A stretch of DNA of 64,000 nucleotides, taken from positions 1 through 64,000 of the forward strand of contig DASXGW010000012.1 in the NCBI GenBank assembly GCA_036488875.1, written 5' to 3'. The notes below the pieces were generated by a model. The model had not been told where the DNA came from, did not search any database, and worked only from the letters and a program-made list of their open reading frames with translations. Both the position numbers and the translations under genes were made by a program. This document shows positions 5,225 through 25,085 of the stretch, piece after piece. Position 1 is the first letter of the stretch, and every line of letters starts with the position of its first letter. The stretch is from Candidatus Baltobacteraceae bacterium. GTDB taxonomy: Bacteria; Vulcanimicrobiota; Vulcanimicrobiia; Vulcanimicrobiales; Vulcanimicrobiaceae.

Positions 5225-6580
5225 TTAGTCGTCGTCCGGAGGCAGATTCGAAGGCGGTCGCGTGAGGAAGTACGACGCCGGTTTCTTCGCGGGAATCGTC
5301 ACGAACGCGCGCGGCGTCTGATGGAAGTCGAAGACGTCGAGCATGCTGTTGGCGCGCTGGTCCGTGTAGCCACCGGCGGTAGAACCGAGTACGGGTAGAC
5401 CGAAGACCTCTTCTACGAGCTTCACGACGCTGCCGAATTCGTATTGCGTGTGCGCGACGTAACCGGCTCTGGCGTACGGCGAGATGACGATGCACGGAAC
5501 GCGTATGCCCAGCCCGCGGTAGTCGCGGTGCGGAGGCGGCAGGTCGTCGTACCATCCGCCCCAATCATCCCACAGCACGACGATAGCCGTACTCTTCCAA
5601 TCGGGGCTCTTGCCGATCGTGTTGACGACCGCAGCCACCCACGACGGGCCCGTTTGTCCAAATCCGGGATGGTCGGAATCGATTGCGTCGGGAATCACCC
5701 ACGAAACTGATGGTAAATGCCCGTCGCGCGCGTCGTAGATCGCGCGGGTCTGCGGTGAGCTGACGTTACGCGACCAATCCGGGCCGTAGCGCACGTTTTT
5801 GATCGCACTGAACTCAGACCAAATGTTCCCGCCGAACACCGATACCGCGGGTGCATAATACTTCCACGAGACTCCGGCGGCATCGAGTGTGTCGGCCAGC
5901 GTACGGAACTGCGTAAAGCATGGAAACGGTCCGCCGCCCACGCTTTCGTGACGCGCCGAGTTGAGAATCGACGTCTTCGTGCCGGCCGGCGCATCGCAGC
6001 CCCAAGGCTGCGCGAACGGCGTATCGACTTCGGAGATCGACGGCGAAAGACTCGCGGTCCCGGCGATGAGGTCGAGATGCGCGGTGAAGCTGTTGCCGAA
6101 CATCGTCGGAAACATGTGGTCGGCCAAGACGTAGCTTTTGGCCATCGCCCAATACGGCGCCACTTCGCTGGGATTCACGTACGAATACACGTAGTCGCCG
6201 ACGGCGTCGTGACGCGTACAGTCGTAGTGGTTTCGATCGAAGCCGTCCATGCGGCCGCCGTCATAATCTGCCAGCGCCTCCGACCATTGGTTCGTCAGGC
6301 AAGGTCCAACGAGTCCGACCGGGTGCAGCATCACCTTCCTACCGTCGTGCGTGCGCCCGTACCTCGCGAACTCCGAGTTCGGAAAACCGTAAAAGAGATT
6401 GTCGAACGTGCGGTTCTCCTGAACGATGATGACGATGTGCTTGAGATACTTCCCGGGACCGAGGACCGAGCCGGAAGCAACGGTCGAGACCGGCGCAACG
6501 ACCGGTGCTACCGGCGTCGCGCTGCACGAACTTGCGAACGCCGCCACGCAAAGGAGCGCGAGCAGTTTGCGCAACGTCAT
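5225..6580 (-). CDS. Phosphoesterase-family lipoprotein (phospholipase C/acid phosphatase-like), copy 1
   Basis: The family (Pfam phosphoesterase, PF04185) includes Pseudomonas PlcH/PlcN and Francisella AcpA, which hydrolyse phosphate esters outside the cytoplasm. The 451-residue protein has a lipoprotein signal peptide with lipobox FASSC (Cys19). The N-terminal ENRTFDN (55-61) matches the Glu-Asn metal site of the family. GRMDGFDRNHYD follows, and WDDWGGWYDD near 337 supplies the Asp pair. The start ATG overlaps the stop of copy 2 (ATGA). Compared with the other copies it has a diverged tail (PSNLPPDDD) and extra Cys-containing segments. The substrate is unknown. Confidence 0.87.
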   Translation of the reverse strand: MTLRKLLALLCVAAFASSCSATPVAPVVAPVSTVASGSVLGPGKYLKHIVIIVQENRTFDNLFYGFPNSEFARYGRTHDGRKVMLHPVGLVGPCLTNQWSEALADYDGGRMDGFDRNHYDCTRHDAVGDYVYSYVNPSEVAPYWAMAKSYVLADHMFPTMFGNSFTAHLDLIAGTASLSPSISEVDTPFAQPWGCDAPAGTKTSILNSARHESVGGGPFPCFTQFRTLADTLDAAGVSWKYYAPAVSVFGGNIWSEFSAIKNVRYGPDWSRNVSSPQTRAIYDARDGHLPSVSWVIPDAIDSDHPGFGQTGPSWVAAVVNTIGKSPDWKSTAIVVLWDDWGGWYDDLPPPHRDYRGLGIRVPCIVISPYARAGYVAHTQYEFGSVVKLVEEVFGLPVLGSTAGGYTDQRANSMLDVFDFHQTPRAFVTIPAKKPASYFLTRPPSNLPPDDD

Positions 6581-7908
6581 TCGGTGTCCAACGGCAGATT
6601 CGAGGGTGGAAGCGCGATGAAGAAACTGGGCGGATGCGTGACGCGGACGGGAACGTACCGTCGCGGTTGTTGTGAGAAATCGAAAACGTCGCCGACGCTG
6701 GCTGCGCGAACGTCGCTGGTACCGAGCCTCCCTAGTTGCCAGTTATCTTCGACGAAACGCAGAATGCTGCCGAACTCGTACTGCGTGTGCGCCACGTAGC
6801 CGCTGCGCGCATAGGGCGATACCACGATTGCCGGCACGCGAAAACCGAGTTGGCCAAAATCGAATTGACGTGGGGGCACGTGGTCGTAGAGCCCTCCCCA
6901 ATCGTCCCAAATGATAAAGATGGCGGTCGACTGCCAGTACGAGCTTTCGCCGATGGCGTTGACGATGCTGCCGATCCAGTCGGGCCCGTAGTCGTGCGGT
7001 ATTCCGGGATGGTCCGAGTAGTCCCCAGTCGGAATCACCCACGACACGCTGGGAAGTTTTTGATTTTTGATGTCGCCGAAGAGTTTGGTCTGTGGATCTA
7101 CGACTTTGGTACCCCACTCGTCGCCGTAACGCACCGCGCGAATCGCTTCAAACGGGTTCCAGGGATCGTACGGCGTGCTGTGATAGTAGCGCCAGCTCAC
7201 GTGTTTGCGATCGAGGAGATCGCGCAAGGTCGCATAGCTGTAGCACGGAAACGGACCGCCGTATTTCAGGAAGGCGCCGGCGCGAGTCACGAGCGACGTT
7301 ATCGTGTTCTTGGAGGCGTCGCATCCCGGGGGGCCGCCTCCGATCGGGCTGTCGACGATCGCGTCGTTGGTGTTGATTTGCGTGCCGCCGGCGATCAGAT
7401 CTTGATGCGCGATGGTACTGTCGCTGCCGGCGGTCATAAACATGTGGTCGGCCAATACGTACCGCTTGGCCAACGTCCAATACACGGCGATCTGCTTTGG
7501 ATCCACATATTGATACGGTGCTAGCTGCGGTTTTCCATAGTTGCTCGCGACGATACCGAACCCGTCCATCTTGCCGCCGTCGTAATCAATACGATAGGAG
7601 TTATAGTTGTGCGGAACGTCGGCAGCGGCGAGCAGGCCGGCCTTCGTCAATGGAACCGTTGTGACGGTAGTGCCGGTGCGCAGCCGCCCCTGCATCGTGC
7701 CCTCGGCACGTGGGAACGTTGCGAAGAAGTTGTCGAAACTGCGGTTCTCTTGAATGAGGATCAAGACGTGCTGGATCTTCTTTGGGGGCGCCGCCGGCGA
7801 GCGCGCGCCATTTGCCGCCGAGGGCTGTACCGGCACGAAAGGCGCCGACGCGCAGCCGCCGGTAAAAGCGACAAGCGCGGCAAGCGCACACCAACGTACG
7901 GTAGTCAT
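6577..7908 (-). CDS. Phosphoesterase-family lipoprotein, copy 2
   Basis: A longer open frame extends upstream through the neighbouring transporter gene. The real start is ATG at 7908, which gives a lipoprotein signal peptide (MTTVRWCALAALVAFTGGC, Cys19) and an ATGA overlap with the transporter stop. The 443-residue protein has the family set QENRSFDNFFATFP, DYDGGKMDGFG, HQDLIAGG, WDDWGGLYDHV, and SPYARSGYVAHTQYEFGS. It ends PLDTE, the tail seen in the main array. It is coupled to copy 1 downstream. It is predicted to be anchored outside the inner membrane and to hydrolyse a phosphate mono- or diester. Confidence 0.87.
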   Translation of the reverse strand: MTTVRWCALAALVAFTGGCASAPFVPVQPSAANGARSPAAPPKKIQHVLILIQENRSFDNFFATFPRAEGTMQGRLRTGTTVTTVPLTKAGLLAAADVPHNYNSYRIDYDGGKMDGFGIVASNYGKPQLAPYQYVDPKQIAVYWTLAKRYVLADHMFMTAGSDSTIAHQDLIAGGTQINTNDAIVDSPIGGGPPGCDASKNTITSLVTRAGAFLKYGGPFPCYSYATLRDLLDRKHVSWRYYHSTPYDPWNPFEAIRAVRYGDEWGTKVVDPQTKLFGDIKNQKLPSVSWVIPTGDYSDHPGIPHDYGPDWIGSIVNAIGESSYWQSTAIFIIWDDWGGLYDHVPPRQFDFGQLGFRVPAIVVSPYARSGYVAHTQYEFGSILRFVEDNWQLGRLGTSDVRAASVGDVFDFSQQPRRYVPVRVTHPPSFFIALPPSNLPLDTE

Positions 7909-8768
7909 CCGTGACTCACCACGACGGGACAGCTTTCGCATTCGAACTGAATCGTCACGTGCGCTATGCCGAAGTGCTCGCGCAAGCACTCGTCGATCGC
8001 GCGTAGGATGGCGTTCGCTTCGCTGAGCCGGCGGTCGTCGAGCAGTACGTGCGCCGAAAGCGCGTGCGAGCCGCTGCCGATCGACCAGACGTGCAAGTCG
8101 TGCACTCCCGTGACGCCGGCAATCTCCGAGATGTGCTTGGAGACCGCGACGTCGTCGAGGCCGCGCGGCGTGCTTTCGAGCAGCACGCTGGTTGCATCGC
8201 GCATCACGCGCAGCACGCCGACCACGATAATGACCGCGACGAAGAGCGACAGCGCCGGATCGATCCAGGCGTGGTGCGTGAGCGCGATCGCGATGCCGCC
8301 GGCGATCACGGCCACGGCGCCCAACGCATCGCCGAGCACGTGAAAGAGCGCGGCGCGCACGTTGAGGTCGCGATGCGCTCCGTTGAGGACGAAACCCACG
8401 ACGGCATTGCAGAAGAGGCCCACTCCGGCGACCGCTGACATGATCGCGGGCTCCGGCTGAACCGGCTCGGAGAATCGGCGCGCGGCGAAGTAAACGATCG
8501 CGATCGTAGCGACGAGCAGGATCGTACCGTTGAGGAGCGCGCCTAGGACTTCGATCCGTCCGTAGCCGTAGGTTCGCTTTCGATCGGCTGGCCGCTCCGC
8601 ACCGATTGCCGCCAGCAGTGCCAATCCAAGCGCGAACAGATCCATCGTTACGTGAACCGCGTCGCCGGTTAAAGCCAGGCTGCGCGACGCATAGCCGCCC
8701 CAAAACTCGAGTAGCGCGACGAAGGCGGTAACGGCGATTGCGAGACTGAGACTGCGGCGGACCGTCAC
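7905..8768 (-). CDS. Cation diffusion facilitator family metal transporter
   Basis: The 287-residue protein has the CDF layout: six hydrophobic segments in the first 200 residues, then a cytoplasmic ferredoxin-like domain. The metal-site motifs are visible as LTGDAVHVTMD in TM2 and HVLGDALGA in TM5, the His/Asp pattern typical of zinc, cobalt or cadmium exporters. The C-terminal domain contains HDLHVWSIGSG, common to the family, and ends with a short Cys pair (ECESC) that could sense metal. It is translationally coupled to the lipoprotein downstream by an ATGA overlap. If those lipoproteins are metal-dependent phosphoesterases, metal handling could be a functional link, but this is speculative. 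Confidence 0.92.
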   Translation of the reverse strand: MTVRRSLSLAIAVTAFVALLEFWGGYASRSLALTGDAVHVTMDLFALGLALLAAIGAERPADRKRTYGYGRIEVLGALLNGTILLVATIAIVYFAARRFSEPVQPEPAIMSAVAGVGLFCNAVVGFVLNGAHRDLNVRAALFHVLGDALGAVAVIAGGIAIALTHHAWIDPALSLFVAVIIVVGVLRVMRDATSVLLESTPRGLDDVAVSKHISEIAGVTGVHDLHVWSIGSGSHALSAHVLLDDRRLSEANAILRAIDECLREHFGIAHVTIQFECESCPVVVSHG

Positions 8769-13024: not shown

Positions 13025-13792
13025 TTAGACGCCCGCCCGCCCGGTTACTTTTTCTTGTCGCTTCAAACGTTCGGCTAAGGTGACGGCCACGAACGCCGCG
13101 ACCTCGCTGGGCAGCGTCCCGCGGCCGAAGCCGGCGTCGTAGCCGAGCTCGCTGGCCATCAGGTTGGTCACGCGCGGACCGCCGCAAATGGCCACGACGG
13201 CGTCGCGCAAGCCCTCGGCCTCGAGCAGCTCGACGAGCTCGGTGAAATTCTTGACGTCGCTGCCTTTTTGCGTGACGACCTGCGAGGCCAAAATGGCGTC
13301 GATGCGGTTCTCCCTAGCGTAGCGAACGAGATCTTCCGGAGCGATTTGGCTGCCGAGATTGTACGTCTCGAACGAGTGATAGCGCTCGAGCCCGTAATCG
13401 CCCTTGTACCCCTTCATGTTCAGAATAGCGTCAATGCCCACGGTGTGGGCGTCGGTCCCGATGCAGGCCCCGGCAATGCGAATCTTCCGGCCGATCTGCG
13501 TCATGACGAAGTCGTCGACTTGTTCCATCGTCATCGCGTGCTCGCGCGCCGACGGCGCCTTGATGCTCTCGACGTCGACCGCCTGCGGCGTCGAGGCGTA
13601 CACCACGAAAAAGGAAAAACCGGCGGCGATGCGGCGCCCTTCGGCAACCGCGGCGTCGGTGAATCCCATCTTGGTGACGAGTTGCCGCGCCGCTTCGTCG
13701 GCGGCTTCGCTCCATTCGACGGGCAAGGTAAACGACAGCTGAATCTTGCCGTCGTTCATCGTATCGCCGTACGGCTTCACTAACTTAGTCAT
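13025..13792 (-). CDS. kamE: Lysine 5,6-aminomutase beta subunit (KamE, B12-binding)
   Basis: The 255-residue protein corresponds to the small subunit of the PLP- and adenosylcobalamin-dependent D-lysine/L-beta-lysine 5,6-aminomutase. GTDAHTVGID supplies the Asp-x-His-x2-Gly cobalamin motif (His116). Lys127 in NMKGYKGDYG lies exactly 11 residues later, the spacing of the B12 histidine and PLP-binding lysine in the clostridial enzyme. The C-terminal Rossmann B12 domain includes ILASQVVTQKGSD and ICGGPRV. The start ATG overlaps the kamD stop (ATGA). Length and domain layout fit KamE rather than ornithine aminomutase. No cobalamin riboswitch is evident nearby. Confidence 0.95.
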   Translation of the reverse strand: MTKLVKPYGDTMNDGKIQLSFTLPVEWSEAADEAARQLVTKMGFTDAAVAEGRRIAAGFSFFVVYASTPQAVDVESIKAPSAREHAMTMEQVDDFVMTQIGRKIRIAGACIGTDAHTVGIDAILNMKGYKGDYGLERYHSFETYNLGSQIAPEDLVRYARENRIDAILASQVVTQKGSDVKNFTELVELLEAEGLRDAVVAICGGPRVTNLMASELGYDAGFGRGTLPSEVAAFVAVTLAERLKRQEKVTGRAGV

Positions 13793-15336
13793 GCGGGCAC
13801 TCCCCGCAGCGATTCTTCGAATGGATTGTAGTACGCGGCCGAGCGCTCGAAGACGCCGTCGAATCCGCGTCCGCCGTCGGGGTGGCGTGTAACGTCGGCA
13901 AAGACGGCCGCATCGATCGCGTGCATCAGTCCCATCGACGCCACGCGTTCGAGCTGCTGCTCGCATCCCTCGAGGACGTCCTGCGCGCGCCGCTCGACGA
14001 TGCCGCCCGGCTTGAACGAAATCTCGTCGCCGAAGTGCCGCGCCGTACTCATGATGTAGCGCGCGTTTTCGAGCGAGAGCACGCGGTCGCCCAAAAACGG
14101 CGTGTGAATCGCCTCGGTCAGCATTCCGCAGAGATGAATCGTCTGCTGCGTCATGACCGACGTCAGATTGAACAGCGCGTCGATCAAATGCCCTTTGAAG
14201 ATGTCGCCCGTCATGTGTTTGGTCGGCGGCATATATTTGAGCGGAGCGTTCGGGAAAATCTGGCGCGCGAGTTGCGCCTGCGCGACTTGATAGAGGAACC
14301 CGTCTTCGAGGTCGGGGTTGATTTCGTACGCGTCCCCCAAACCGATTTGGCGGTCCGGCATGCCGGCGCGGTGCGCGAACTCCTCGTTGATGAACTGCGA
14401 GGCGAGCACGGCGGGGGCTTGCTCGACGGCGTCGGCCGTCGTGAGATAGTTGTCCTCACCCGTGTTGATGATGATGCCGGAGTAGGCGTTGAGCATCCGG
14501 CTGAAATGCTGATCGACGAACGTCCGCTTCATGTTGATGTCGCGGAAGAGAATGCCGTACATCGAGTCGTTGAGCAGCATGTCCAAACGTTCGATCGCCG
14601 CCATCGTGGCAATCTCCGGCATGCACAGGCCGCTCGCATAGTTGGTTAGCATCACGTAGCGTCCCAGGCGCTCGGAAACTTCATCGAGCGCGGCACGCAT
14701 GATTTGGAAGTTGGCTTGCGTCGCGTACGTGCCGCCGAAACCTTCGGTCGTCGGCCCGAACGGAACGAAATCGAGCAGCGATTGACCCGTCGAGCGGATG
14801 ACCGCGATGATTTGCGCGCCGGCTTCGGCCGCGGCAACCGCCGCGGTGCGATCTTCGTAGATGTTGCCGCTGGCGACGATCACGTAGAGCAGCGGGGGCG
14901 GCAACTGCGCAAAGCGCTGGAGCCGTTCGGTTCGCTCGTCACGCCGGCCGCGAATCTGCGTCATCGCCTTCTCGACGTACGGCCGTAAGGCGCCGCGCGC
15001 GGCCGCGTCGGGCGTCTGCGAAAACTCGTCGAGACGATGCTTACCGGCTGCGATCGCTTCGCCCAGCGCGCGCGGCTCGAGACCGGTTTCGGCCAGCGCC
15101 TTACCGAACGCGAGCGCGACCCCGTCGCGGCGCTGAGCCGGCGACAGCGCGTCGACGATGAGGTTGGGAACCGGTACCTCGTCGGCGCCGATGCCGTCGA
15201 CGCCCAACAGGCGTACGACGGCGCGCTCGACCGAAACCGTCGAGTGGGCCGCAATGAACTCTTCGACCGGCGAGACGATGGCTTGCGCCAGCTCCCGGCA
15301 ACGATCGATCCGGGAGCGATCCACCCTTAACTCCAT
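13789..15336 (-). CDS. kamD: Lysine 5,6-aminomutase alpha subunit (KamD)
   Basis: The protein is 515 residues from ATG 15336; a TTG at 15369 would add 11 residues. It follows the KamD family closely, with the PLP TIM-barrel segments LLYVIVASGNIYEDRTAAV, IRSTGQSLLDFVPFG, TTEGFGGTYATQANF, IINTGEDNYLTTADAVE and PLKYMPPTKHMTGDIFKGH. With KamE it moves the terminal amino group of lysine or beta-lysine to carbon 5, a step of lysine fermentation and of related catabolism. The usual partners kamA, kdd, kce and kal are not in the window. The downstream thiolase and acyl-CoA dehydrogenase about 9 kb away could serve the same route, but this is inference. Confidence 0.95.
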   Translation of the reverse strand: MELRVDRSRIDRCRELAQAIVSPVEEFIAAHSTVSVERAVVRLLGVDGIGADEVPVPNLIVDALSPAQRRDGVALAFGKALAETGLEPRALGEAIAAGKHRLDEFSQTPDAAARGALRPYVEKAMTQIRGRRDERTERLQRFAQLPPPLLYVIVASGNIYEDRTAAVAAAEAGAQIIAVIRSTGQSLLDFVPFGPTTEGFGGTYATQANFQIMRAALDEVSERLGRYVMLTNYASGLCMPEIATMAAIERLDMLLNDSMYGILFRDINMKRTFVDQHFSRMLNAYSGIIINTGEDNYLTTADAVEQAPAVLASQFINEEFAHRAGMPDRQIGLGDAYEINPDLEDGFLYQVAQAQLARQIFPNAPLKYMPPTKHMTGDIFKGHLIDALFNLTSVMTQQTIHLCGMLTEAIHTPFLGDRVLSLENARYIMSTARHFGDEISFKPGGIVERRAQDVLEGCEQQLERVASMGLMHAIDAAVFADVTRHPDGGRGFDGVFERSAAYYNPFEESLRGVPA

Positions 15337-15372
15337 GGTGGAGGCTTCTTTCGCCGCGCGGGGCCTCAAGCC

Positions 15373-16230
15373 CTAAGCTTGGTTTTTCAGGCGCAGGTAG
15401 GCGGCGATCCCCTCGCGCCAACCCGGCATCTCGATCCCTAAGGTACGCAGCTTGCCGCTGTCCAGCGCCGAAAACGCCGGGCGCCGCGCCGGCGCCTTCC
15501 ACGACGCGGCCGCAATCGGCTCGACGGGGTGATCGACGCCGGCCTGGCGCAGTGCCTCGACCGCAAAGTCGTACCAGGTGACCGGGCCGACGTCGGCGGC
15601 GTGAAAAAGACCTGTCGCTCCCGACTCGACTAGCGACAACAGCGCTTCGGCGAGATGCCCGGCGAACGTCGGCGACGCGGTCACGTCGTTGACGATGCGG
15701 ATCGTCTCCTTCGCGCGGCCTTGCGCGATCACGCGATCGACGAACGTATGCCCTTTGCCGGCCGACGGCCGAACGCCGTATACCCCGCACGTGCGCACGA
15801 CGAGCGCACGCGAATCCAGACGCGCGACCAGCTGTTCGCCCGCGAGTTTTGAAACCGCGTACGCCGAGAGCGGTCGCGGACAGTCGCGCTCCGTGTACGG
15901 CACGGTCGCCGTTCCGTCGAACACGTAGTCGGTGCTGATCGTCACGAAGATCGCATTGCGATCCCGCGCGCTGCGCGCGAGGCGTTCGACCGCAATCGCG
16001 TTGACGGCCAACGCGCGTTCGGGTTCGGCTTCGCATCGATCGACGTTGTGAAACGCCGCGCAGTTAACGACGGCGTCGGGTTTTTCGTGCGCGACGAACG
16101 CATCGACCGCGTTGCCGTCTTCGATGTCGAGGTCGGCGTGCGACGGTGCGACGATCTCCCATCGCGTCCAGCTGCGACGGATTTCCGTGCCGAGCTGTCC
16201 CGAACCGCCGATGAGGAGCGCTCGGCTCAC
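15373..16230 (-). CDS. rfbD: dTDP-4-dehydrorhamnose reductase
   Basis: The 285-residue protein starts at GTG 16230, which overlaps the flippase stop (GTGA). It has the RmlD order: an N-terminal Rossmann motif LLIGGSGQLGTEIRR, then VVNCAAFHNVDRCE, TISTDYVFDGT, and catalytic SAYAVSKLAGE (Tyr-x3-Lys). RTCGVYGV and FHAADVGPVTWYDFA follow. It reduces dTDP-4-keto-L-rhamnose to dTDP-L-rhamnose. An RmlC-like epimerase lies at 24543-25085, but rmlA and rmlB are not seen here. It sits 36 bases upstream of kamD without evident functional connection. Confidence 0.9.
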   Translation of the reverse strand: MSRALLIGGSGQLGTEIRRSWTRWEIVAPSHADLDIEDGNAVDAFVAHEKPDAVVNCAAFHNVDRCEAEPERALAVNAIAVERLARSARDRNAIFVTISTDYVFDGTATVPYTERDCPRPLSAYAVSKLAGEQLVARLDSRALVVRTCGVYGVRPSAGKGHTFVDRVIAQGRAKETIRIVNDVTASPTFAGHLAEALLSLVESGATGLFHAADVGPVTWYDFAVEALRQAGVDHPVEPIAAASWKAPARRPAFSALDSGKLRTLGIEMPGWREGIAAYLRLKNQA

Positions 16231-17540
16231 GCGGCTTTGGCCGAGCGTTCGCCCAAGGCCGCCTGCACGCCGATGGTTATCGCAACGGCACAGACGGTCA
16301 CCGCGTTTCCGATCGCGACGGCGGTCACGACTTGCGCAAGCGTTTGATGGAAGAGCGCGATGCTCAGCAGCGTACCGAGCACACAAAAGACCAGCGGCAC
16401 CGCAAAGGCGATACGGTGCGTCGCGATTCCATACGAGCCCAGCATACCGGCGAGCGCCAAGCACACCATTGCGGTTCCGTACGGCAGCAACAGGCTCGCG
16501 GCCGCATCGAACGCGTGGCCGACCAGCGCGTGCAGCAGCACGATGCCGAAGAACTTCAGGGCGATAACACCGGCGATGCCGATCGCCACCAAAACCGTAA
16601 CGCACGCGGCCAGCGCGTAGCGCGTACGCTCGCCCCGCACGTGGCGCTCCGTCGCCTGCGGCAGCAAAATCGTCGGAATGAAGCCCACGAAATACAGCAG
16701 CACCTTCCCGCCCAGCGACGCCGCCGAATAGATACCAGCCTGATTCGCGTCGAAGAAATGCTTCACGAGCACGACGTCCATCGATCCCATGAGCGCGCCC
16801 GCAATCGTAATCGCCGCCGAGCCGACGCCGCTGAGGACGATACGCCGCCAGTCGTAACGAATCTCGCAGTCGCCCACCGAGCGGTACCGCTGCGAGAGCG
16901 CGATGCCCACCGCGACCGCGCCGCCGAAGATCCCCGCGGTGAACCCGAGCACCCCGCCGAGCAATCCCAGCACGAGCACCATGAAAACGACCAGTGCCAC
17001 GACCTTCGAGAAGCCGTCGGTCACGCACGATATCGTGAACGCGCGGTAATCTTGCGTTCCCTGCGCGACGGCGCGCAGGACCGAGCTAAAGAGCAAGCCG
17101 CCGCCCATGAGCGCGACGAAGGGCACCGTCCACGCGGGCACGTGCAGGAACGCGCCGACCTGATTCATCGTCGCAAACGCCAGCACCAGATAGAGCAGCG
17201 CCAGCGCTCCGAAGAGCCGCACCACGTCGACGATTAGGCGGCGCACGTGCCGGTCGTCGTGCAGCACGCGAAACTCCGCCGCGAACCGCGCGATGACCGG
17301 AACCGCAAGGGCCGCCGGAACGGCCGCGATGGTGCAGCCGGAGATCAGCGTGTACAGCACGCCGTACTCCGCGACGCCCAGACGGCGGCTCGCGACGGCA
17401 TGGAACACGAATCCGCCGACGTTGAGCACCATCATCGCAAAGAAGACCAGCGCCCCCTGACGCAGCATGATGCTGCCCTGCAGGCGCGCTAGTCCGCGAT
17501 CGATGGCCTTCGAAGCGGCCACGTTCTTATTGATCGTCAA
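16227..17540 (-). CDS. Oligosaccharide flippase family membrane protein (Wzx-like)
   Basis: The 437-residue, strongly hydrophobic protein has about 12 predicted membrane segments. Its beginning (RQGALVFFAMMVLNVGGFVFHAVASRRLGVAEYG) is typical of the polysaccharide-biosynthesis branch of the MATE/MOP superfamily, which moves undecaprenyl-diphosphate-linked oligosaccharides across the inner membrane. The gene overlaps the end of copy 3 of the lipoprotein array by 14 bases and rfbD by 4 bases. This context of rhamnose genes fits export of a rhamnose-containing unit. The exact substrate cannot be deduced. Confidence 0.85.
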   Translation of the reverse strand: MTINKNVAASKAIDRGLARLQGSIMLRQGALVFFAMMVLNVGGFVFHAVASRRLGVAEYGVLYTLISGCTIAAVPAALAVPVIARFAAEFRVLHDDRHVRRLIVDVVRLFGALALLYLVLAFATMNQVGAFLHVPAWTVPFVALMGGGLLFSSVLRAVAQGTQDYRAFTISCVTDGFSKVVALVVFMVLVLGLLGGVLGFTAGIFGGAVAVGIALSQRYRSVGDCEIRYDWRRIVLSGVGSAAITIAGALMGSMDVVLVKHFFDANQAGIYSAASLGGKVLLYFVGFIPTILLPQATERHVRGERTRYALAACVTVLVAIGIAGVIALKFFGIVLLHALVGHAFDAAASLLLPYGTAMVCLALAGMLGSYGIATHRIAFAVPLVFCVLGTLLSIALFHQTLAQVVTAVAIGNAVTVCAVAITIGVQAALGERSAKAA

Positions 17541-18882
17541 CCGGTTGGTACGACGGCGGACGATGCTCGAAGTAGCTCTGCGAATACTTCGCCGAGATCG
17601 GAACGAACGTACGCGGCTTCTGTGAGAATGAGAAGAAGTCGTTGACGAAATCGGCGGCGCGCTCGTCGGTGTGGTGCAGCGTCCCCAATCCCCAATTGTC
17701 CTCGGCGAACTTCAGGACGCTGCCGAACTCATACTGGTCGTGCGCCACGTAACCTTTCTTCGCATACGCGGAGATGGCCAATAGCGGGACACGAAAGCCT
17801 AGCCCTTGATAGTCGAGATGCGGCGGCTTGACGTGGTCGTAGAATCCGCCCCAATCGTCCCACGTCACGAGAATGACGGTCGAGTCCCAGTACTTGCTTT
17901 TGCCGACGGCATTGACGACCGACGCGATCCACGAGGGACCGGTATCCTTGGGCGAGCCGGGGTGGTCGGAATCGTCGTGATCGGGCAACACCCACGCGAA
18001 CTGCGGCAGCGAGCCGTTGCGAATGTCGTCATAGATCGCCGTATTCGGATGAACGACGTTCGTATGCCATTCAGAACTATAGCGCACCGTTTTGATCGCG
18101 TCGAACGCGGACCATAAGTCGCCGGCATGCGACTTCAACGGCGGCGCGTAGTACTTCCAAGAAACCCCTTTCGCATCGAGGAGATCGCGCAAAGTCGAGT
18201 AGCCCATGCAGGGGAACGGCCCTTTATGCAGTTGCTCCTTATTCGTTAGCACCGTCGTGACAGTGCCGAGGGGGGCGTCACAACCCCACGGGTGATTACT
18301 CGGGTAGTTCGTTAGACTCTCCCACGGACTGAGCGGAGTGCCGGCGGCTATGAGATCTTGATGGCCGATAAAACTCCCTGCAGCCTGGGTTTCGAAGAAA
18401 TGATCGGCGAGCACGTACTGGTTTGCCATCGTCCAGTAGGGTGCGATCTGCGACGGATCCACGTACTGATATCCGTACGCGCCGATGGCCCCGCCGCCAC
18501 CCCAACCGCCCCAGCCGTCATAGCCGAAGCCGTCCATCTTCCCCTGATGGTACTCCTTCACGTAGATTTGCCACGTGTGTCCGATGTCGCGGCCGAGCAG
18601 TGGATGCATCGTGAGTTGTACGGTCTCGAGCTTGCCGGTGGTCGGGTCGATCATCGGGCCCGACGTCGCTCCATCGGCTCCGTGACCGTAGGTCGCAAAG
18701 AAGTTATCGAAGCTCCGGTTTTCTTGAATCATCACGATGACGTGCGCGAACTTCGGCGCGGCGCTCGCGTCGGGTATCCGTTGCGGCAGCATACCGGCGT
18801 TCGCCCCGTCCATTGACGGATGCGAACCCCCGCACGCCGCGAGGGCGGCGAGCAATATCACTAGGCCGAGCCAACTCTTCAT
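17527..18882 (-). CDS. Phosphoesterase-family lipoprotein, copy 3
   Basis: I place the start at ATG 18882 rather than the in-frame GTG at 18891. GGAG at 18891-18894 is then an 8-base-spaced ribosome binding site, and the signal peptide begins cleanly (MKSWLGLVILLAALAAC, lipid Cys17). The 451-residue protein carries QENRSFDNFFATYG, KMDGFGYDGWGGWGGG (a glycine/tryptophan-rich insertion specific to this copy), GHQDLIAAG, TWDDWGGFYDH, and SAYAKKGYVAHDQYEFGS. The C-terminus differs from its siblings (QPVDDQ), and the gene is followed directly by the flippase. Predicted role: an extracytoplasmic, metal-dependent phosphate-ester hydrolase. Confidence 0.87.
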   Translation of the reverse strand: MKSWLGLVILLAALAACGGSHPSMDGANAGMLPQRIPDASAAPKFAHVIVMIQENRSFDNFFATYGHGADGATSGPMIDPTTGKLETVQLTMHPLLGRDIGHTWQIYVKEYHQGKMDGFGYDGWGGWGGGGAIGAYGYQYVDPSQIAPYWTMANQYVLADHFFETQAAGSFIGHQDLIAAGTPLSPWESLTNYPSNHPWGCDAPLGTVTTVLTNKEQLHKGPFPCMGYSTLRDLLDAKGVSWKYYAPPLKSHAGDLWSAFDAIKTVRYSSEWHTNVVHPNTAIYDDIRNGSLPQFAWVLPDHDDSDHPGSPKDTGPSWIASVVNAVGKSKYWDSTVILVTWDDWGGFYDHVKPPHLDYQGLGFRVPLLAISAYAKKGYVAHDQYEFGSVLKFAEDNWGLGTLHHTDERAADFVNDFFSFSQKPRTFVPISAKYSQSYFEHRPPSYQPVDDQ

Positions 18883-18887
18883 TGCAT

Positions 18888-18974
18888 TCACTCCGTTTTT
18901 GCGTATTTCGCCGCGACCGGCACGAACGCCCGCGGCTTCCGCGACAAATCAAACCTATCGACGCCGTTTTTCAC
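18888..18974 (-). pseudogene. C-terminal remnant of an additional phosphoesterase copy
   Basis: The 79-base gap between copies 4 and 3 is not ordinary spacer. Read on the minus strand it encodes VDRFDLSRKPRAFVPVAAK followed by YAKTE and TGA (18888-18962). This matches the tail shared by the array (for example FDFKHKPRAFVPIAAKYS in copy 6), but the FFEHQAPSN part is missing between KY and TE. The frame is open from a GTG at 18974, which overlaps the stop of copy 4 (GTGA), so a 28-residue peptide could even be made. The best reading is a deleted copy whose final ACG-GAG codons survive because they are the ribosome binding site for copy 3. Confidence 0.85.
18891..18894 (-). promoter_or_regulatory. 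Ribosome binding site of copy 3, embedded in the remnant
   Basis: GGAG formed by the last two codons (ACG GAG) of the remnant lies 8 bases before ATG 18882. It decides the start of copy 3 over the GTG at 18891. Confidence 0.75.
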
Positions 18975-20317
18975 TCGCTATCCACGGGCATGTTCGACGG
19001 AGCTTGGTGCTCGAAGAATCCCTTCGAATATTTGGCGGCTATCGGCGTAAACTTTCGCGGCGGTTTCGAGAAGTCGAACACGTCGCCCGCGAAGTTCCGC
19101 GCTCGCACGTCGGTGGTTCCGAGACTCGCCAGGCCGAACGTGCTCTCAACGAACTTCAAGATGCTTGCGAATTCGTAAACGTTATCCGCGACGTAGCCTT
19201 TCTTGGCATAGGGCGAAACGATCAGCATCGGAACGCGGAAGCCGAGGCTGCCCGGGCCGTACTGCGGCGGCGCGACGTGATCGTAGAAACCGCCCCAGTC
19301 GTCCCATACGACGACGATCGCGGTGCTATTCCAATATTGGCTCTTGCCGATCGCGTTGACGACCGATGCCACCCACGACGGTCCGGTGTCGGTCGTCGTA
19401 TCGGAGTGGTCGGAGTTGACGAAGTCGGGAATGACCCACGACACCGCCGGCAGCGTCGCTTTGCCGATGTCGTCGTACACGTTCTTCTCCGGCGTCGAAA
19501 CGTTGGTGGTCCACTCCGGGCCGCTGCGCACCGCTTTGATCGCGTCGAATGCGCTCCACACGGCGCCGTCCTGGTTACTGGTCACGGCGGGAACGTAATA
19601 TTTCCAGCTGATGCCCTTTTCGTCGAGCACGTCGCGCATCGTGCGGTACGTAAAACAGGGAAACGGACCGCCGCCGATGACGTATTTCCCCGACGACGTC
19701 AACAGGTTGGTCACCGTACCGAGCGCCGCGTCGCATCCCCATGGAAAGCCGGTCGGCTGATCGACGACTTCTTTGCCGCGACTGACCGTCGTCGCTCCCG
19801 CGATCAAATCCTGATGCGCCGGAAAGCTATTGCTGCCGACGGTTTGGAACATGCGGTCCGCGAGCACGTACTGATGGGCTATCGACCAATACGGCGCGAT
19901 CTGCGCCGGATCGACGTACTGATAGAGCAACGAGCCGGGACGTCCCTCGACCTTCTGATTCCAGAATCCGTCCATCTTGCCGCCGTCGTAATCGATCAGA
20001 TAATCGGAATAGCGGTAGTTGGGCTGAATGTGCTCGGCGAGCCCGACTTTCTTGAGCGGATAGGTCGAGACGGTACCCTTTGCGGTTTTGCGCGGCGGCG
20101 TTTTGCCGATCGTCGCTCCGTTCGCGCCGGGATACGTCGCGAAGAAATTGTCGTACGACCGGTTCTCCTGAATCATGATGACGACGTGCTTGATGTACTT
20201 GCCGGGCGACACCGGCGCGTTCGGCGCGGGCAGCACGCCGACGCCCGCGCTCGGTGACCCGGACGCACCGCACGCGGCGAGCGAGACGAGGGCGGCAATC
20301 GCGAGAAAGCGTTTCAC
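18971..20317 (-). CDS. Phosphoesterase-family lipoprotein, copy 4
   Basis: The 448-residue protein starts at GTG 20317, 8 bases after GGAG at the end of copy 5. The signal peptide MKRFLAIAALVSLAAC gives lipid Cys16. Family motifs are QENRSYDNFFATYPG, DYDGGKMDGFWNQ, GSNSFPAHQDLIAG (a Ser region where AcpA-like enzymes carry the nucleophile), VWDDWGGFYDH, and SPYAKKGYVADNVYEFAS. It is the closest relative of copy 5: they share TPPRKTA, FWNQKVEGRPGS-type segments and PPQYGPGSLGFRVPMLIVS. This implies a recent duplication. The tail ends VDSE followed by TGA. Confidence 0.88.
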   Translation of the reverse strand: MKRFLAIAALVSLAACGASGSPSAGVGVLPAPNAPVSPGKYIKHVVIMIQENRSYDNFFATYPGANGATIGKTPPRKTAKGTVSTYPLKKVGLAEHIQPNYRYSDYLIDYDGGKMDGFWNQKVEGRPGSLLYQYVDPAQIAPYWSIAHQYVLADRMFQTVGSNSFPAHQDLIAGATTVSRGKEVVDQPTGFPWGCDAALGTVTNLLTSSGKYVIGGGPFPCFTYRTMRDVLDEKGISWKYYVPAVTSNQDGAVWSAFDAIKAVRSGPEWTTNVSTPEKNVYDDIGKATLPAVSWVIPDFVNSDHSDTTTDTGPSWVASVVNAIGKSQYWNSTAIVVVWDDWGGFYDHVAPPQYGPGSLGFRVPMLIVSPYAKKGYVADNVYEFASILKFVESTFGLASLGTTDVRARNFAGDVFDFSKPPRKFTPIAAKYSKGFFEHQAPSNMPVDSE

Positions 20318-20322
20318 CAGTG

Positions 20323-21678
20323 CTACTCCGTGTCGACCGGCAGATTGGATGGTGCTTGATGCTCGAAGAACGCCTTCGAATACTTCACCGCGATCGGAAC
20401 GAACTTACGCGGCTTGGAGAACTGAAAGACGTCTCCGGCGAAGTTGCGCGCCCGAACGTCGGTCGTGCCCAAGCTCTCCAGGCCGAACGTGCTTTCGACG
20501 AACTTCAGGATGCTTCCGAACTCGTAGACGTGGTGCGCGACGTAACCCTTTTTTGCGTACGGCGAAACGATCAGCATCGGAACGCGGAAGCCGAGGCTTC
20601 CCGGGCCGTACTGCGGCGGCGGAACGTGATCGTAGAAGCCGCCCCAGTCGTCCCAGACGACGATGATGACGGTGCTCGACCAATATTGGCTCTCGCCGAT
20701 TGCATTGACGACCGAAGCGACCCACGACGGACCGGTATCTTTGGTCGTATCGGAATGATCGGAGTTATAGAAATCCGGAATCACCCACGACACCGCCGGG
20801 AGCGTGCCTTTGCTGATATCTGCATACACGTTGGTTTGCGGGCTCGAGACGTTGGTCGTCCATTCCGGACCGTAACGGACCGCGCGAATGGCGTCGAACG
20901 CGCTCCATACCTGGCCGCCCGGCCCATGCAGCGCCGGTACGTAGTACTTCCAGCTCACGCCCTTTTCATCGAGCACATCGCGCAGGGTGCGGTACTGAAA
21001 GCACGGTGACGGACCCGGCAGCGGATACTTACCCGACGTGCTCAGCAAGGTCGTCGTCGTCCCGTACGGTGCGTCGCACCCCCACGGCATGTTGTCGGGC
21101 GGGTCGACGACCTCTTTGGTCTTGTCGATCGACGTCGATCCGGCGATCAGATCTTGATGCGATGGAAAGCTCGAACTGCCGACGGTCTGGAACATGTGAT
21201 CGCCCAACACGTACTGGTCGGCCATCGACCAATACGGCGCGATTTGCTTGGGATCGACGTACTGGTAGAGCACCGAACCGGGACGGCCCTGAACTTTCTG
21301 ATTCCAAAAACCATCCATCTTGCCGCCGTCGTAATCGGCGCGATAGTTCGCGTAGCGGTACACCGGCTGCAAGTGCTCGGGCAAATCGACCTTCTTCAAG
21401 GGATACGTCGTCGACGTTCCGTGCGCGGTTTTCCGCGGCGGCGTGTTTCCGACCGGCGTTCCACCCTTGACCGGCGGTCCATCGGCACCCGGATACGTCG
21501 CGAAGAAGTTATCGAACGACCGGTTCTCTTGAACCATGATCACGACGTGGCTGACGTAGTGTCCGGGGGCAACTGCGTCTTGCGCCGGAAGCAATCCGCC
21601 TGCGCCACCCGTCGTCGCTCTTGCGCCGCACGCCGCGAGCGCGAACGACGCGGCTGCGGCGGCTAAACGTTTGATCAA
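20323..21678 (-). CDS. Phosphoesterase-family lipoprotein, copy 5
   Basis: The 451-residue protein starts at TTG 21678, 7 bases after the GGAG that ends copy 6. The signal peptide is MIKRLAAAAASFALAAC (Cys17). It has the full motif series QENRSFDNFFATYPG, DYDGGKMDGFWNQ, GSSSFPSHQDLIAG, WDDWGGFYDHVPP, and SPYAKKGYVAHHVYEFGS. It ends AFFEHQAPSN-LPVDTE. A short extra segment (VKGGTPVGN) near residue 80 distinguishes it from copy 4. As for its siblings, the predicted product is an outer-face lipoprotein hydrolase, possibly a phospholipase C or acid phosphatase used for phosphate or lipid scavenging. Confidence 0.88.
   Translation of the reverse strand: MIKRLAAAAASFALAACGARATTGGAGGLLPAQDAVAPGHYVSHVVIMVQENRSFDNFFATYPGADGPPVKGGTPVGNTPPRKTAHGTSTTYPLKKVDLPEHLQPVYRYANYRADYDGGKMDGFWNQKVQGRPGSVLYQYVDPKQIAPYWSMADQYVLGDHMFQTVGSSSFPSHQDLIAGSTSIDKTKEVVDPPDNMPWGCDAPYGTTTTLLSTSGKYPLPGPSPCFQYRTLRDVLDEKGVSWKYYVPALHGPGGQVWSAFDAIRAVRYGPEWTTNVSSPQTNVYADISKGTLPAVSWVIPDFYNSDHSDTTKDTGPSWVASVVNAIGESQYWSSTVIIVVWDDWGGFYDHVPPPQYGPGSLGFRVPMLIVSPYAKKGYVAHHVYEFGSILKFVESTFGLESLGTTDVRARNFAGDVFQFSKPRKFVPIAVKYSKAFFEHQAPSNLPVDTE
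20326..20329 (-). promoter_or_regulatory. Ribosome binding site of copy 4, embedded in the end of copy 5
   Basis: The terminal ACG-GAG codons (Thr-Glu) of copy 5 form GGAG, 8 bases before the GTG start of copy 4. Confidence 0.7.
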
Positions 21679-21682
21679 GCCG

Positions 21683-23092
21683 TTACTCCGTGTCCACCGG
21701 CAAGCCCGAAGGCGCTTGATGCTCGAAGAAACTCTGCGAGTATTTCGCTGCGATCGGCACGAACGCGCGCGGCTTGTGTTTGAAGTCGAACGCGTCGGCG
21801 GCGAAGTCGCGCGAGATCGCGTCGGTCGTGTTGAGGCTCGGCAATCCGAACGTATCTTCGACGAACCGTACGATGCTGCCGAACCCGTACACGTGATGCA
21901 GCACGACGCTATGATGCGCGTAGGCGGAGACGACGATCATCGGCACCCGGAAACCGGGACCGCCGACTTCTGCCTGCGAGTTGGTCTGCGGCGGGGGAAT
22001 GTGATCGTATAAACCGCCCCAGTCGTCCCACACGACGACGATGGCAGTCGAATCCCAGTATTGGCTCTTCCCTATCGCATTGACGACTGAAGCAACCCAC
22101 GACGGACCGGTGTCGACTCTTCCGCCGCAATTCTCCGATACGAAGTTACCTGGGTGGTCGGAGTTGCAGGCGTCGGGAATGACCCACGAAACCGCTGCAA
22201 GTTGACCGGTGCTGATGTCGTTGAAGATGAGGCTGGTCCCCCCGCTGGTCGATGGCCAAACGACCTTCGTGCCCCACTCCGGACCGCGACGTACGGCTCT
22301 TATCGAATCGAACGCGTTCCAAGCGTTGGCGTCTAAGTTGCTTTTGATTTTCCCGGGAACGTAGTATTTCCAGCTCAAGCTTTTCGCGTCGAGCGTATCG
22401 CGGAGCGTCGGGTACGCTGCGCCGAAACAGGGGAACGGGCCGTTTACGACCAGCTGCCCGCTATTGGTGAGAAATGGAACCGAAGTTTTATCTCCCTTGA
22501 ACTTTGGCGCGTCGCAGCCCCACGCGCCGTCCGAACCGTCGCTCGGGATATCGACGAGCGTCCGTCTCGCATCGAGGCGCGTACCGCCGCGAATCAGTGC
22601 TTGGTGCGCGGTGTAGCTCTCGCTGCCCTGAGTGGTGAACAGATGATCCGCGAGTACGTACTGCTTTGCCAACGTCCAATACGGCGCGATCTGGGCGGGA
22701 TCGACGTACTGATAAGCGCCCTGTCCGCTGGATGCACCGAACCCGTCCATTTTGCCGCCGTCATAATCGGCGACGAAGTACTGGTGTGCGTAGTTCAAAA
22801 AGAGCGGATTGTAGAGCGAAACTTTCTTGAGCGGAATGCACTCACCGCTCGAGATCTTTCCGCACGTCACGGGCGCATCGGTCGCCCCGGGAAAGGTCGC
22901 GAACAGATTATCGAACGACCGGTTCTCCTGAACCATGATCACGATGTGCTTGATGCGTTTGCCGGGCGGCACCGAGCCGGGCGACGCCGCATCGGCGGCC
23001 ATCGGCAGCATTCCGGCGCTCGTGCTCGGCGACGAACCTCCGTTACACGCGGCGAGCGAGATCAAAGCCACTGATGCGAGCAAACGCTTCAT
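21683..23092 (-). CDS. Phosphoesterase-family lipoprotein, copy 6
   Basis: The 469-residue protein starts at ATG 23092, 7 bases after GGAG at the end of copy 7. The signal peptide MKRLLASVALISLAAC gives Cys16. Motifs are QENRSFDNLFATFPG, DYDGGKMDGFG, GSESYTAHQALIRGG (His-Gln kept but Asp-Leu altered), and VWDDWGGLYDH. It is longer than copies 4 and 5 because of extra loops with additional cysteines (VTCGKISSGEC, NFVSENCGGRVD) that could form disulfides. It also replaces the usual AKKGY with AHHSV. The loop differences suggest a different substrate. Confidence 0.87.
   Translation of the reverse strand: MKRLLASVALISLAACNGGSSPSTSAGMLPMAADAASPGSVPPGKRIKHIVIMVQENRSFDNLFATFPGATDAPVTCGKISSGECIPLKKVSLYNPLFLNYAHQYFVADYDGGKMDGFGASSGQGAYQYVDPAQIAPYWTLAKQYVLADHLFTTQGSESYTAHQALIRGGTRLDARRTLVDIPSDGSDGAWGCDAPKFKGDKTSVPFLTNSGQLVVNGPFPCFGAAYPTLRDTLDAKSLSWKYYVPGKIKSNLDANAWNAFDSIRAVRRGPEWGTKVVWPSTSGGTSLIFNDISTGQLAAVSWVIPDACNSDHPGNFVSENCGGRVDTGPSWVASVVNAIGKSQYWDSTAIVVVWDDWGGLYDHIPPPQTNSQAEVGGPGFRVPMIVVSAYAHHSVVLHHVYGFGSIVRFVEDTFGLPSLNTTDAISRDFAADAFDFKHKPRAFVPIAAKYSQSFFEHQAPSGLPVDTE
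21686..21689 (-). promoter_or_regulatory. Ribosome binding site of copy 5, embedded in the end of copy 6
   Basis: GGAG from the final ACG-GAG codons of copy 6 lies 7 bases before the TTG start of copy 5. It supports TTG as a genuine start. Confidence 0.7.
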
Positions 23093-23096
23093 AATG

Positions 23097-24485
23097 CTAC
23101 TCCGTGTCGACCGGCTGATTCGACGGTGCTTGATGCTCGAAGAACGACTGCGAATATTTCGCGGGAACCGGCGTGAAGCCGCGCGGGGACGCGAAGTCGA
23201 AGAAATCGGTCACGAATCCGGCCGTCGTCGCGTCGGTCGTGTGCAAGCTCGGCAGACCGAAGACGGTCTCGACGAACTTCACAACGCTGCCGAACTCGTA
23301 CTGCTTGTGCGAGATGTAGCCTTTCTTCGCATATGCGGACACGACGATCATCGGAACGCGGAAACCCGGCCCACCGAGATTCGAAACGGTCACCTTGCCC
23401 GGCACCGGCGGAAGCACGTGGTCGTAAAAGCCGCCCCAGTCGTCCCACACGACGACGATCGCCGTCGATTTCCAGTATTGGCTCTTCCCAACGGCGTTCA
23501 CGATCGATGCGACCCACGAAGGTCCCGTATCGCCCGACGTCCCGGGATGGTCGGAGTTATTGGCGTCGGGAACGATCCACGACATCGACGGCAGCCTGCC
23601 GTTCTTGATGTCGGTAAAGATATTCGTTTCCGGAGACGAGACGTTCGCGTTCCATTCCGGTCCGCTGTAGACAACCTTGACCGCCGCAAACGCACTCCAA
23701 ATGGCCGAAAAGAACGCACCGCCGTATTGCGGCTCGTAATACTTCCAACCAATATGTTTGGCGTCGAGCGTATCGCGCAGCGTTTCGTACGTCGAACCGA
23801 AGCACGGATATGGATTGCCGGCCGTCCCCGCGGACGAGTACTTCCCGGAAAGCGTGAGGAGGCCCGTGGTCGTTCCCGTCGCCGCGTTACAACCCCACGG
23901 CGTATTGCTCGGATTGTCGATCGCGCTCTGGGTCTTGCCGACCGCCGTATCGCCGCGAATCAGGTCTTGGTGGCCGGTGAAGCTGCTGCTCCCCTGCGTT
24001 TGGAACATGTGATCCGCGAGCACGTACTGCTTCGCCAGCGTCCAGTAGGGCACGACGTCTTTCGGAGCGACGTATTGGTAGAGGTACGAACCGGGCTTGC
24101 CTTCGGCAATGGCTTCGTTCCAAAAGCCGTCCATGTTGCCGCCGTCCCATTCTCTCTTGAAGTCCGAATACGCATTGTGCGGCGTAAACTTCGGGCTCGC
24201 GAGCGGAACGGAATGAAGTTTGATCGTGCCGTGCGGCGTTTTGCCGATCGTCGTACCGGCCGCGTTGGGAAACGTCGCAAACAAACTATCGAACGATCGA
24301 TTCTCTTGAATGACGACGATCACGTGTTTGATGTACTGTCCCGCACCGTTGGGCGATGCGGCGTTGGAATCGAAGGTCGAGGTGGGCGCGTACGGCAGCG
24401 GCGATGCGGAACGAACGCCGCCGCAGCCGGCAGCGAGCGAAAGGGCGACGGCAAAAGCTGTCGCCGAGAGCAGTCGTCGATTCAT
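23097..24485 (-). CDS. Phosphoesterase-family lipoprotein, copy 7 (first of the array)
   Basis: A much longer open frame runs upstream on the opposite side of an RmlC-like gene and is not coding. ATG 24485 has GAGG 5 bases upstream and gives the lipoprotein signal MNRRLLSATAFAVALSLAAGC (Cys21). The 462-residue protein has QENRSFDSLFATFP, WDGGNMDGFWNEA (Asn for the usual Lys), GSSSFTGHQDLIRG, VWDDWGGFYDH, and SAYAKKGYISHKQYEFGS. It is the promoter-proximal gene of the five-copy array and faces a divergent gene across a 57-base gap, so the array promoter should lie there. Confidence 0.87.
   Translation of the reverse strand: MNRRLLSATAFAVALSLAAGCGGVRSASPLPYAPTSTFDSNAASPNGAGQYIKHVIVVIQENRSFDSLFATFPNAAGTTIGKTPHGTIKLHSVPLASPKFTPHNAYSDFKREWDGGNMDGFWNEAIAEGKPGSYLYQYVAPKDVVPYWTLAKQYVLADHMFQTQGSSSFTGHQDLIRGDTAVGKTQSAIDNPSNTPWGCNAATGTTTGLLTLSGKYSSAGTAGNPYPCFGSTYETLRDTLDAKHIGWKYYEPQYGGAFFSAIWSAFAAVKVVYSGPEWNANVSSPETNIFTDIKNGRLPSMSWIVPDANNSDHPGTSGDTGPSWVASIVNAVGKSQYWKSTAIVVVWDDWGGFYDHVLPPVPGKVTVSNLGGPGFRVPMIVVSAYAKKGYISHKQYEFGSVVKFVETVFGLPSLHTTDATTAGFVTDFFDFASPRGFTPVPAKYSQSFFEHQAPSNQPVDTE
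23100..23103 (-). promoter_or_regulatory. Ribosome binding site of copy 6, embedded in the end of copy 7
   Basis: GGAG from the final ACG-GAG codons of copy 7, before its TAG stop, lies 7 bases before ATG 23092. Confidence 0.75.
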
Positions 24486-24542: not shown

Positions 24543-25085
24543 ATGACCGTAGAGCCCCTCCCAATTGCCGGCGCACTGCTGGTCACACCTAAAGTATATA
24601 CGGACCTTCGCGGAAGTTTTGCTGAGATTTTCGCGAGCGCGCGCTATACGGACGCGGGCATCGACGATGCGTTCGTGCAGGACAATCTTTCGATCTCGCG
24701 CCGGGGAGTGCTGCGCGGCCTGCACGGCGACCCGCGCATGAGCAAGCTGGTGCAAGTTCTCGCGGGGGAGGCGTACGACGTGATCGCCGACGCGCGTGAG
24801 GACTCGACGACGTACCGCCGCTGGTTCGGGACGCTGCTCAAGGCGAGCGAGCGGCAGCAGGTTTACGTACCGAAGGGGTGCCTTCACGGGTTTCTCGCCG
24901 TTTCCGAAGAGGTCGTCTTCCTTTACAAGCAGAGCGCGCTGTACGATCCTGCCGCCGAGTTCGGGGTGAGGTGGGACGACCCCGACCTGGCAATCCGGTG
25001 GCCCCTCGAAGGACGCTCGCCGATCCTCTCCGAGCGGGACGCGGCCAACCCGCCGCTTGCGGACCTCATCGCCCACAAGGCGTAA
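24543..25085 (+). CDS. dTDP-4-dehydrorhamnose 3,5-epimerase family protein (RmlC-like)
   Basis: The 180-residue cupin protein starts at ATG 24543. It has the family landmarks LTDLRGSFAEIF-like, QDNLSISRRGVLRGLHGDP (catalytic His in RGLH), VPKGCLHGFLAVSEEV, and EFGVRWDDPDLAIRWPL. RmlC converts dTDP-4-keto-6-deoxyglucose to the L-lyxo form used by RfbD, which is encoded at 15373-16230. The usual RGLHYQ is RGLHGDP here, so a related NDP-sugar epimerase or a 4-keto-sugar isomerase of the same fold is possible. It faces the lipoprotein array divergently. Confidence 0.83.
   Translation: MTVEPLPIAGALLVTPKVYTDLRGSFAEIFASARYTDAGIDDAFVQDNLSISRRGVLRGLHGDPRMSKLVQVLAGEAYDVIADAREDSTTYRRWFGTLLKASERQQVYVPKGCLHGFLAVSEEVVFLYKQSALYDPAAEFGVRWDDPDLAIRWPLEGRSPILSERDAANPPLADLIAHKA

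Follow-up and report, generated by a model that had tools for sequence, protein, structure and literature searches.

An expanded family of AcpA-like PF04185 lipoproteins in Candidatus Eremiobacterota and its proposed role in organic-phosphorus scavenging

Seven intact genes for lipoproteins of the PF04185 family lie in the window, i.e., the whole stretch of 64,000 nucleotides analysed here, and they belong to a far larger set of such genes in the genome of a soil bacterium of the little-known phylum Candidatus Eremiobacterota and in its relatives. We favour, with modest confidence, the reading that the seven genes belong to a mega-expansion, across the lineage, of anchored lipoprotein phosphatases of the AcpA/phospholipase C superfamily, which would scavenge organic phosphorus and replace PhoA, PhoD, and PhoX. 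The enzyme family is already known; new are the scale of its expansion, the lipoprotein form, the altered histidine set, and the missing standard phosphatases. Among the open-licence titles and abstracts found for Eremiobacterota, none describes the expansion of PF04185, and a description may be published outside these.

Gene arrays, family size, and missing phosphatases

All seven copies are encoded on the minus strand (Table 1) and match PF04185 over its full length, from profile positions 1/2 to 355/356, with 164-220 bits (E 6e-48 to 9e-65) against a Pfam curated cut-off of 23 bits. A sequence-only reading of the window had listed the seven reading frames, with copies 3-7 arranged head to tail, and both statements hold. 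The intergenic gaps 7/6, 6/5, and 5/4 measure 4, 4, and 5 bases, and a four-base overlap joins copy 2 to copy 1; both groups are therefore probably operons. By the same argument from overlap, copy 2 is probably co-transcribed with the cation-efflux gene before it. Copies 4 and 3 are separated by 79 bases that read, in one frame, as FDLSRKPRAFVPVAAKYAKTE followed by a stop, and 36 bases of this gap match the 3' end of copy 6 at 92% identity (E 2e-9). The remnant reported for this gap is thus real, and as the tail of a lost copy it indicates that gain as well as loss of genes has shaped the array. In copies 5, 6, and 7 (20323-24485, minus strand), the codons of a conserved C-terminal Asp-Thr-Glu (GACACGGAG) closely precede the following start codon and could act as a ribosome-binding site for the next copy; this fits the three copies and was rejected as a general feature of the family.

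Table 1 PF04185 lipoprotein genes of the window and adjoining features
Feature	Coordinates	Strand	Description
Copy 1	5225..6580	-	PF04185 lipoprotein; clade B (common to congener); nucleophile motif MFGNSFTAHLDLI
Copy 2	6577..7908	-	PF04185 lipoprotein; FTGGC lipobox; clade A; 443 aa; start at 7908
CDF gene	7905..8768	-	CDF cation-efflux transporter; 4-base overlap with copy 2 start
rmlD-like and flippase genes	15373..17540	-	dTDP-4-dehydrorhamnose reductase and, by a weak match, polysaccharide flippase; immediately downstream of copy 3
Copy 3	17527..18891	-	PF04185 lipoprotein; clade A
Gap	18892..18970	-	3'-terminal remnant of further, deleted copy; reads into copy 3 start codon
Copy 4	18971..20317	-	PF04185 lipoprotein; sister of copy 5
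Copy 5	20323..21678	-	PF04185 lipoprotein; AlphaFold2 model pLDDT 91.7
Copy 6	21683..23092	-	PF04185 lipoprotein
Copy 7	23097..24485	-	PF04185 lipoprotein; first gene of array
rmlC	24543..25085	+	dTDP-4-dehydrorhamnose 3,5-epimerase; divergent from copy 7

The source genome (3.7 Mb, 15 contigs, 97.6% complete) holds 41 PF04185 loci, so that the earlier count of seven is far too low for the genome as a whole, and a second species of the genus holds 32. Exact counts in three relatives of the same bacterial family are 93, 70, and 58; since the relative with 58 copies is assembled into 2.8 Mb in 5 contigs, assembly fragments can hardly inflate its count. A survey of 99 genomes of this family found at least 18 copies in 25 genomes (6 of 38 genera) and no more than 14 in the remaining ones; most genera have 1-14. 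PF04185 occurs in 55 of 55 genomes from the source class (G000-G054), and the five genomes sampled outside this class but within the phylum (G055-G059) lack it. For comparison, 61 of 199 genomes of Acidobacteriota have a match, with a maximum of 10 when about nine candidates per genome were scored; a first look had given at most 15 candidates in any listed genome.

The standard phosphatases are missing from the same lineage. PhoD was found in none of 60 relatives, PhoA in a single one, which lies outside the source class (among G055-G059), and PhoX in none over the cut-off among the relatives searched. This search was confined to PhoA, PhoD, and PhoX; its outcome for the class lends indirect support to phosphorus scavenging, as proposed from the sequence.

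Active site, fold, and predicted location

By sequence, the nearest solved structure is AcpA (E 3.9e-44), whose residues Glu43, Asn44, Ser175, His350, Asp386, and Asp387, with roles described previously (PMC6635428), align with residues invariant in all seven copies. The Glu, Asn, Ser, His, and Asp-Asp positions are also kept in nearly all of 218 homologues: the nucleophile position is Ser in 209 and Thr in seven (Ser in every window copy), the equivalent of His350 is His in 217, and the second Asp of the Asp-Asp pair is Glu in 15. A further, nearly invariant His occupies the fourth position after the nucleophile, which is Ala in AcpA. The AcpA-type set of substrate-binding histidines (His106, His287, His288, and His350) is not fully matched, as only the His350 equivalent is nearly invariant. 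No conserved counterpart of His287/His288 appears in the alignment of homologues, and the position of His106 is occupied by His in 192, Asn in 19, and Tyr in 6 of the 218 sequences (Tyr in copies 4 and 5), in an alignment that is uncertain by one to two residues there. The segment around this position is the most variable block among the genome's own paralogues. 

The site claims of the sequence-only reading fared unevenly. Glu-Asn, Asp-Asp, and a lipobox are indeed present in all seven copies; the His-Gln-Asp segment also ascribed to each deviates in copy 1 (HLD) and copy 6 (HQA). The copies had been described as differing in cysteine-bearing loops; two cysteines (C201 and C226, numbered as in copy 5) are in fact invariant across the 218 homologues, and the variable part is the loop that they enclose. 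Diversification for evasion is without support.

One paralogue elsewhere in the genome (locus L106 6402-7883, minus strand; contig C4 508401-509882) has an intact reading frame in which nearly all of the metal, nucleophile, and His residues are replaced, and judging by these replacements it is probably not an enzyme but a pseudo-enzyme. Variants of another kind occur in a relative (G012, contig C1, L143:4408-13298, minus strand), in which six tandem paralogues combine Thr with Asp-Glu (Glu-Glu in one), a phospholipase-like signature, and a second array (L146) combines Ser with Asp-Glu.

The AlphaFold2 model of copy 5 has AcpA (2d1g) as its top Foldseek match (E 1.3e-25). Superposed on RePLC, NPC4, AcpA, and PlcN it yields Z values of 40-41, and with values so closely tied the fold cannot separate a phosphatase acting on monoesters from a phospholipase acting on lipids; fold as a basis for this call was accordingly rejected. 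The description of the proteins as phospholipase C/acid phosphatase-like is thus accurate at the level of the fold, and the Ser nucleophile favours the phosphatase side. Both specific NCBIfam models score below their cut-offs, i.e., 124-144 bits for the Burkholderia-type acid phosphatase (TIGR03397, cut-off 362.75) and 111-162 bits for the phosphocholine-specific phospholipase C (TIGR03396, cut-off 580.25).

Among characterized enzymes, AcpA of Francisella tularensis resembles the copies in fold (Z 40.2, rmsd 2.7, 361 residues), Ser nucleophile, Glu-Asn/Asp-Asp metal site, and His350 equivalent. However, the structural identity is 25%, and the copies are lipoproteins that occur by the dozen. 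The PF04185 phospholipases C of bacteria (PlcN 9gy2 and PlcH 9gye), fungi (RePLC 8k3g), and plants (NPC4 8hav) share the fold (Z 34-41) and the core acidic residues, whereas the position of Ser is taken by Thr in the phospholipase C 8yk5 and in NPC4, with its signature T158, D299, and E300 (PMC9837106), and the window copies lack the C-terminal domains of NPC4 and PlcH/N. SapM of Mycobacterium tuberculosis, compared here via its publication, is likewise a metal-dependent phosphomonoesterase that uses Ser and agrees in its metal and His residues (PMC6635428), but it is a single secreted enzyme, unlike the many-copy lipoproteins of the present lineage. Pho07, a signal-peptide-bearing enzyme of the "phosphoesterase family" obtained from acid soils, is a phytase with an optimum at pH 4.0 (PMC6355987); its closest relative is actinobacterial, and its membership in PF04185 is deduced from the description only.

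Export as lipoproteins is predicted for most of the family. A strict lipobox test was passed by 133 of 179 homologues versus 18 of 263 neighbouring control genes, and the lipoboxes of the seven window copies were judged by eye. At the position following the lipobox cysteine (+2), Ser, Gly, and Ala predominate and Asp hardly ever occurs. In well-studied diderms such residues direct lipoproteins to the outer membrane, a rule that is carried over here to another phylum.

Descent, selection, and genomic surroundings

Trees built from 72, 224, and 104 sequences, the last including the nearest relatives found across the whole bacterial family, agree in their main points. Copies 4-7 form a clade of the source genome alone (SH-aLRT 97, 104 rows), in which copies 4 and 5 are sisters with 77% identity and represent the youngest pair; besides copy 4, none of the matches listed for copy 5 among the 99 family genomes exceeds about 60% full-length identity. 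The joining of copy 3 to copies 4-7 is neither supported nor rejected (p-AU 0.45), and a grouping of the five with a support of 89 in the 224-row tree dissolved under denser sampling. Copy 2 groups with a distant three-gene tandem array on contig C1 (306-310 kb, support 100), and a single clade of copies 2-7 is rejected (p-AU 0.0034). Copy 1 falls into a second clade (B), with close relatives in the sister species. Tandem expansion, as first proposed, is correct in kind and far larger in extent (41 loci here and up to 93 in kin), but the seven copies are not one duplication series. The contrary expectation, separate ancient families instead of lineage-specific duplicates, meets a mixed outcome, with copies 4-7 on the lineage-specific side and copy 1 in the other clade. 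Clade A comprises 14 copies in the source genome versus 3 in the sister species and clade B 12 versus 15, counts that may be low for the sister species because its assembly is fragmented; they indicate that the two species expanded different branches.

The compared pairs are all under purifying selection, with dN/dS between 0.11 and 0.22 in all but the most diverged one, copies 6 and 7 (0.33). Copies 4 and 5 have a dN/dS of 0.16 at a dS of about 1.0, and four orthologue pairs between the two congeners range from 0.87 to 1.17 in dS. The youngest duplication in the window hence dates from about the time at which the two species separated, a rough statement of age given that these dS values are near saturation. 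Copies 4 and 5 had been singled out as most recently duplicated, which is right as a ranking, but the event itself was not recent.

The array of copies 3-7 is flanked by rmlC and the flippase/rmlD pair within a nucleotide-sugar gene cluster, and copies 1-2 come after a cation-efflux gene. Also inside a nucleotide-sugar gene cluster are genes for the alpha subunit of D-lysine 5,6-aminomutase and a B12-binding/OAM-dimer partner (13025-15369, minus strand). An intein-like insert of about 340 residues interrupts, in frame, the gene for GDP-mannose 4,6-dehydratase at 10298-12334 (minus strand): it begins with SLVGQAPVIIRRNG, ends with ELIIHN before Ser, and contains LAGLIDADG-like segments, and the Pfam and NCBIfam matches cover the two parts of the host enzyme only. 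Around the dispersed copies of the PF04185 family, 45 neighbouring genes revealed no common operon partner, with no family exceeding two members, and no enrichment of glycan genes. Likewise, 26 upstream regions contained no common k-mer beyond shuffled sequences and no excess of Pho boxes of the E. coli type, a consensus that may not be the one of this phylum. With neither common neighbours nor an upstream motif, the copies look like stand-alone enzymes and not like parts of one conserved operon.

Proposed function, rival explanations, and significance

The copies are best read as putative surface-anchored acid phosphomonoesterases, perhaps including phytases. After export, each protein would be fixed by a lipid anchor so as to face the periplasm or the cell surface, where a metal held by Glu51-Asn52 and Asp343-Asp344 would activate Ser170 for attack on a phosphate ester; water would then release orthophosphate from the phospho-serine intermediate for uptake. 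The paralogues differ mainly in the loops at about 90-119, 180-199, and 210-219, and they probably cover different organic phosphate monoesters, i.e., nucleotides, sugar phosphates, and perhaps phytate, and together they would stand in for the missing PhoA, PhoD, and PhoX.

A different substrate class would follow if the copies were phospholipases C or phosphodiesterases that cut phospholipid headgroups, either to remodel lipids or to exploit the membranes of other cells as food. Their structure is as close to RePLC, NPC4, and PlcN as to AcpA, and the six tandem paralogues of G012 with NPC4-like Thr and Asp-Glu suggest that the family may include true phospholipases C. We nevertheless regard this as unlikely for the window copies, given the predominance of Ser over Thr at the nucleophile (209 of 218 homologues and seven of seven copies), the lack of a C-terminal domain like that of NPC4 or PlcH, and a best score of 162 against the 580-bit cut-off of the phosphocholine-specific model. 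Ser nucleophile, missing lipid-binding domain, and distance from that model make us lean towards monoesters. The setting of copies 3-7 between rmlC and the flippase/rmlD pair would also suit enzymes that trim phosphate-bearing substituents from polysaccharides or lipids in the envelope of the producing cell, each enzyme acting with a glycan of its own; we hold this to be very improbable, as neither a common family nor an enrichment of glycan genes emerged among the 45 genes next to dispersed copies.

The expansion could also reflect gene birth and death of little selective value, in which tandem duplication and decay leave many copies that are not specifically needed. Such turnover is evident in the remnant of a lost copy within the array, in the paralogue whose active site is gone, and in the unequal gains of the two congeneric species. 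As a full explanation it appears improbable to us, since only one of 34 well-matched copies is clearly dead, dN/dS is about 0.16 at a dS of at least 1, and the absence of near-identical copies speaks for old duplicates being kept. We return to anchored phosphatases for organic phosphorus as the preferred account, in which PF04185 lipoproteins may be the main route of these bacteria to phosphorus from organic matter.

With its Ser/Asp-Asp, Ser/Asp-Glu, and Thr/Asp-Glu variants, this one family represents an instance, rare among bacteria, of extensive paralogue diversification in which the catalytic core stays constant. Its wider setting is suggested by work on acid soils. In a profile-HMM study, PhoX, PhoD, and PhoA were almost absent from low-pH soils, known acid phosphatases showed no rise there, and "as-yet-unidentified phosphatases" were suggested (PMC5552915). 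When soils of pH 3.1-4.5 were screened by function, the ALP-like superfamily was recovered most often, and the soil libraries of this pH range are also the origin of Pho07 (PMC6355987). We tentatively propose, as a possibility well short of probable, that Eremiobacterota swapped PhoA, PhoD, and PhoX for dozens of diversified AcpA-like surface lipoprotein acid phosphatases and phytases and that these make up a large part of the phosphatases sought in such soils. If true, these enzymes were missed because gene surveys leave the PF04185 family uncounted. A class known largely from metagenomes, in which PhoA, PhoD, and PhoX are undetected and up to 93 phosphatase-superfamily genes occur per genome, is a concrete, testable candidate for the phosphatases of low-pH soils.
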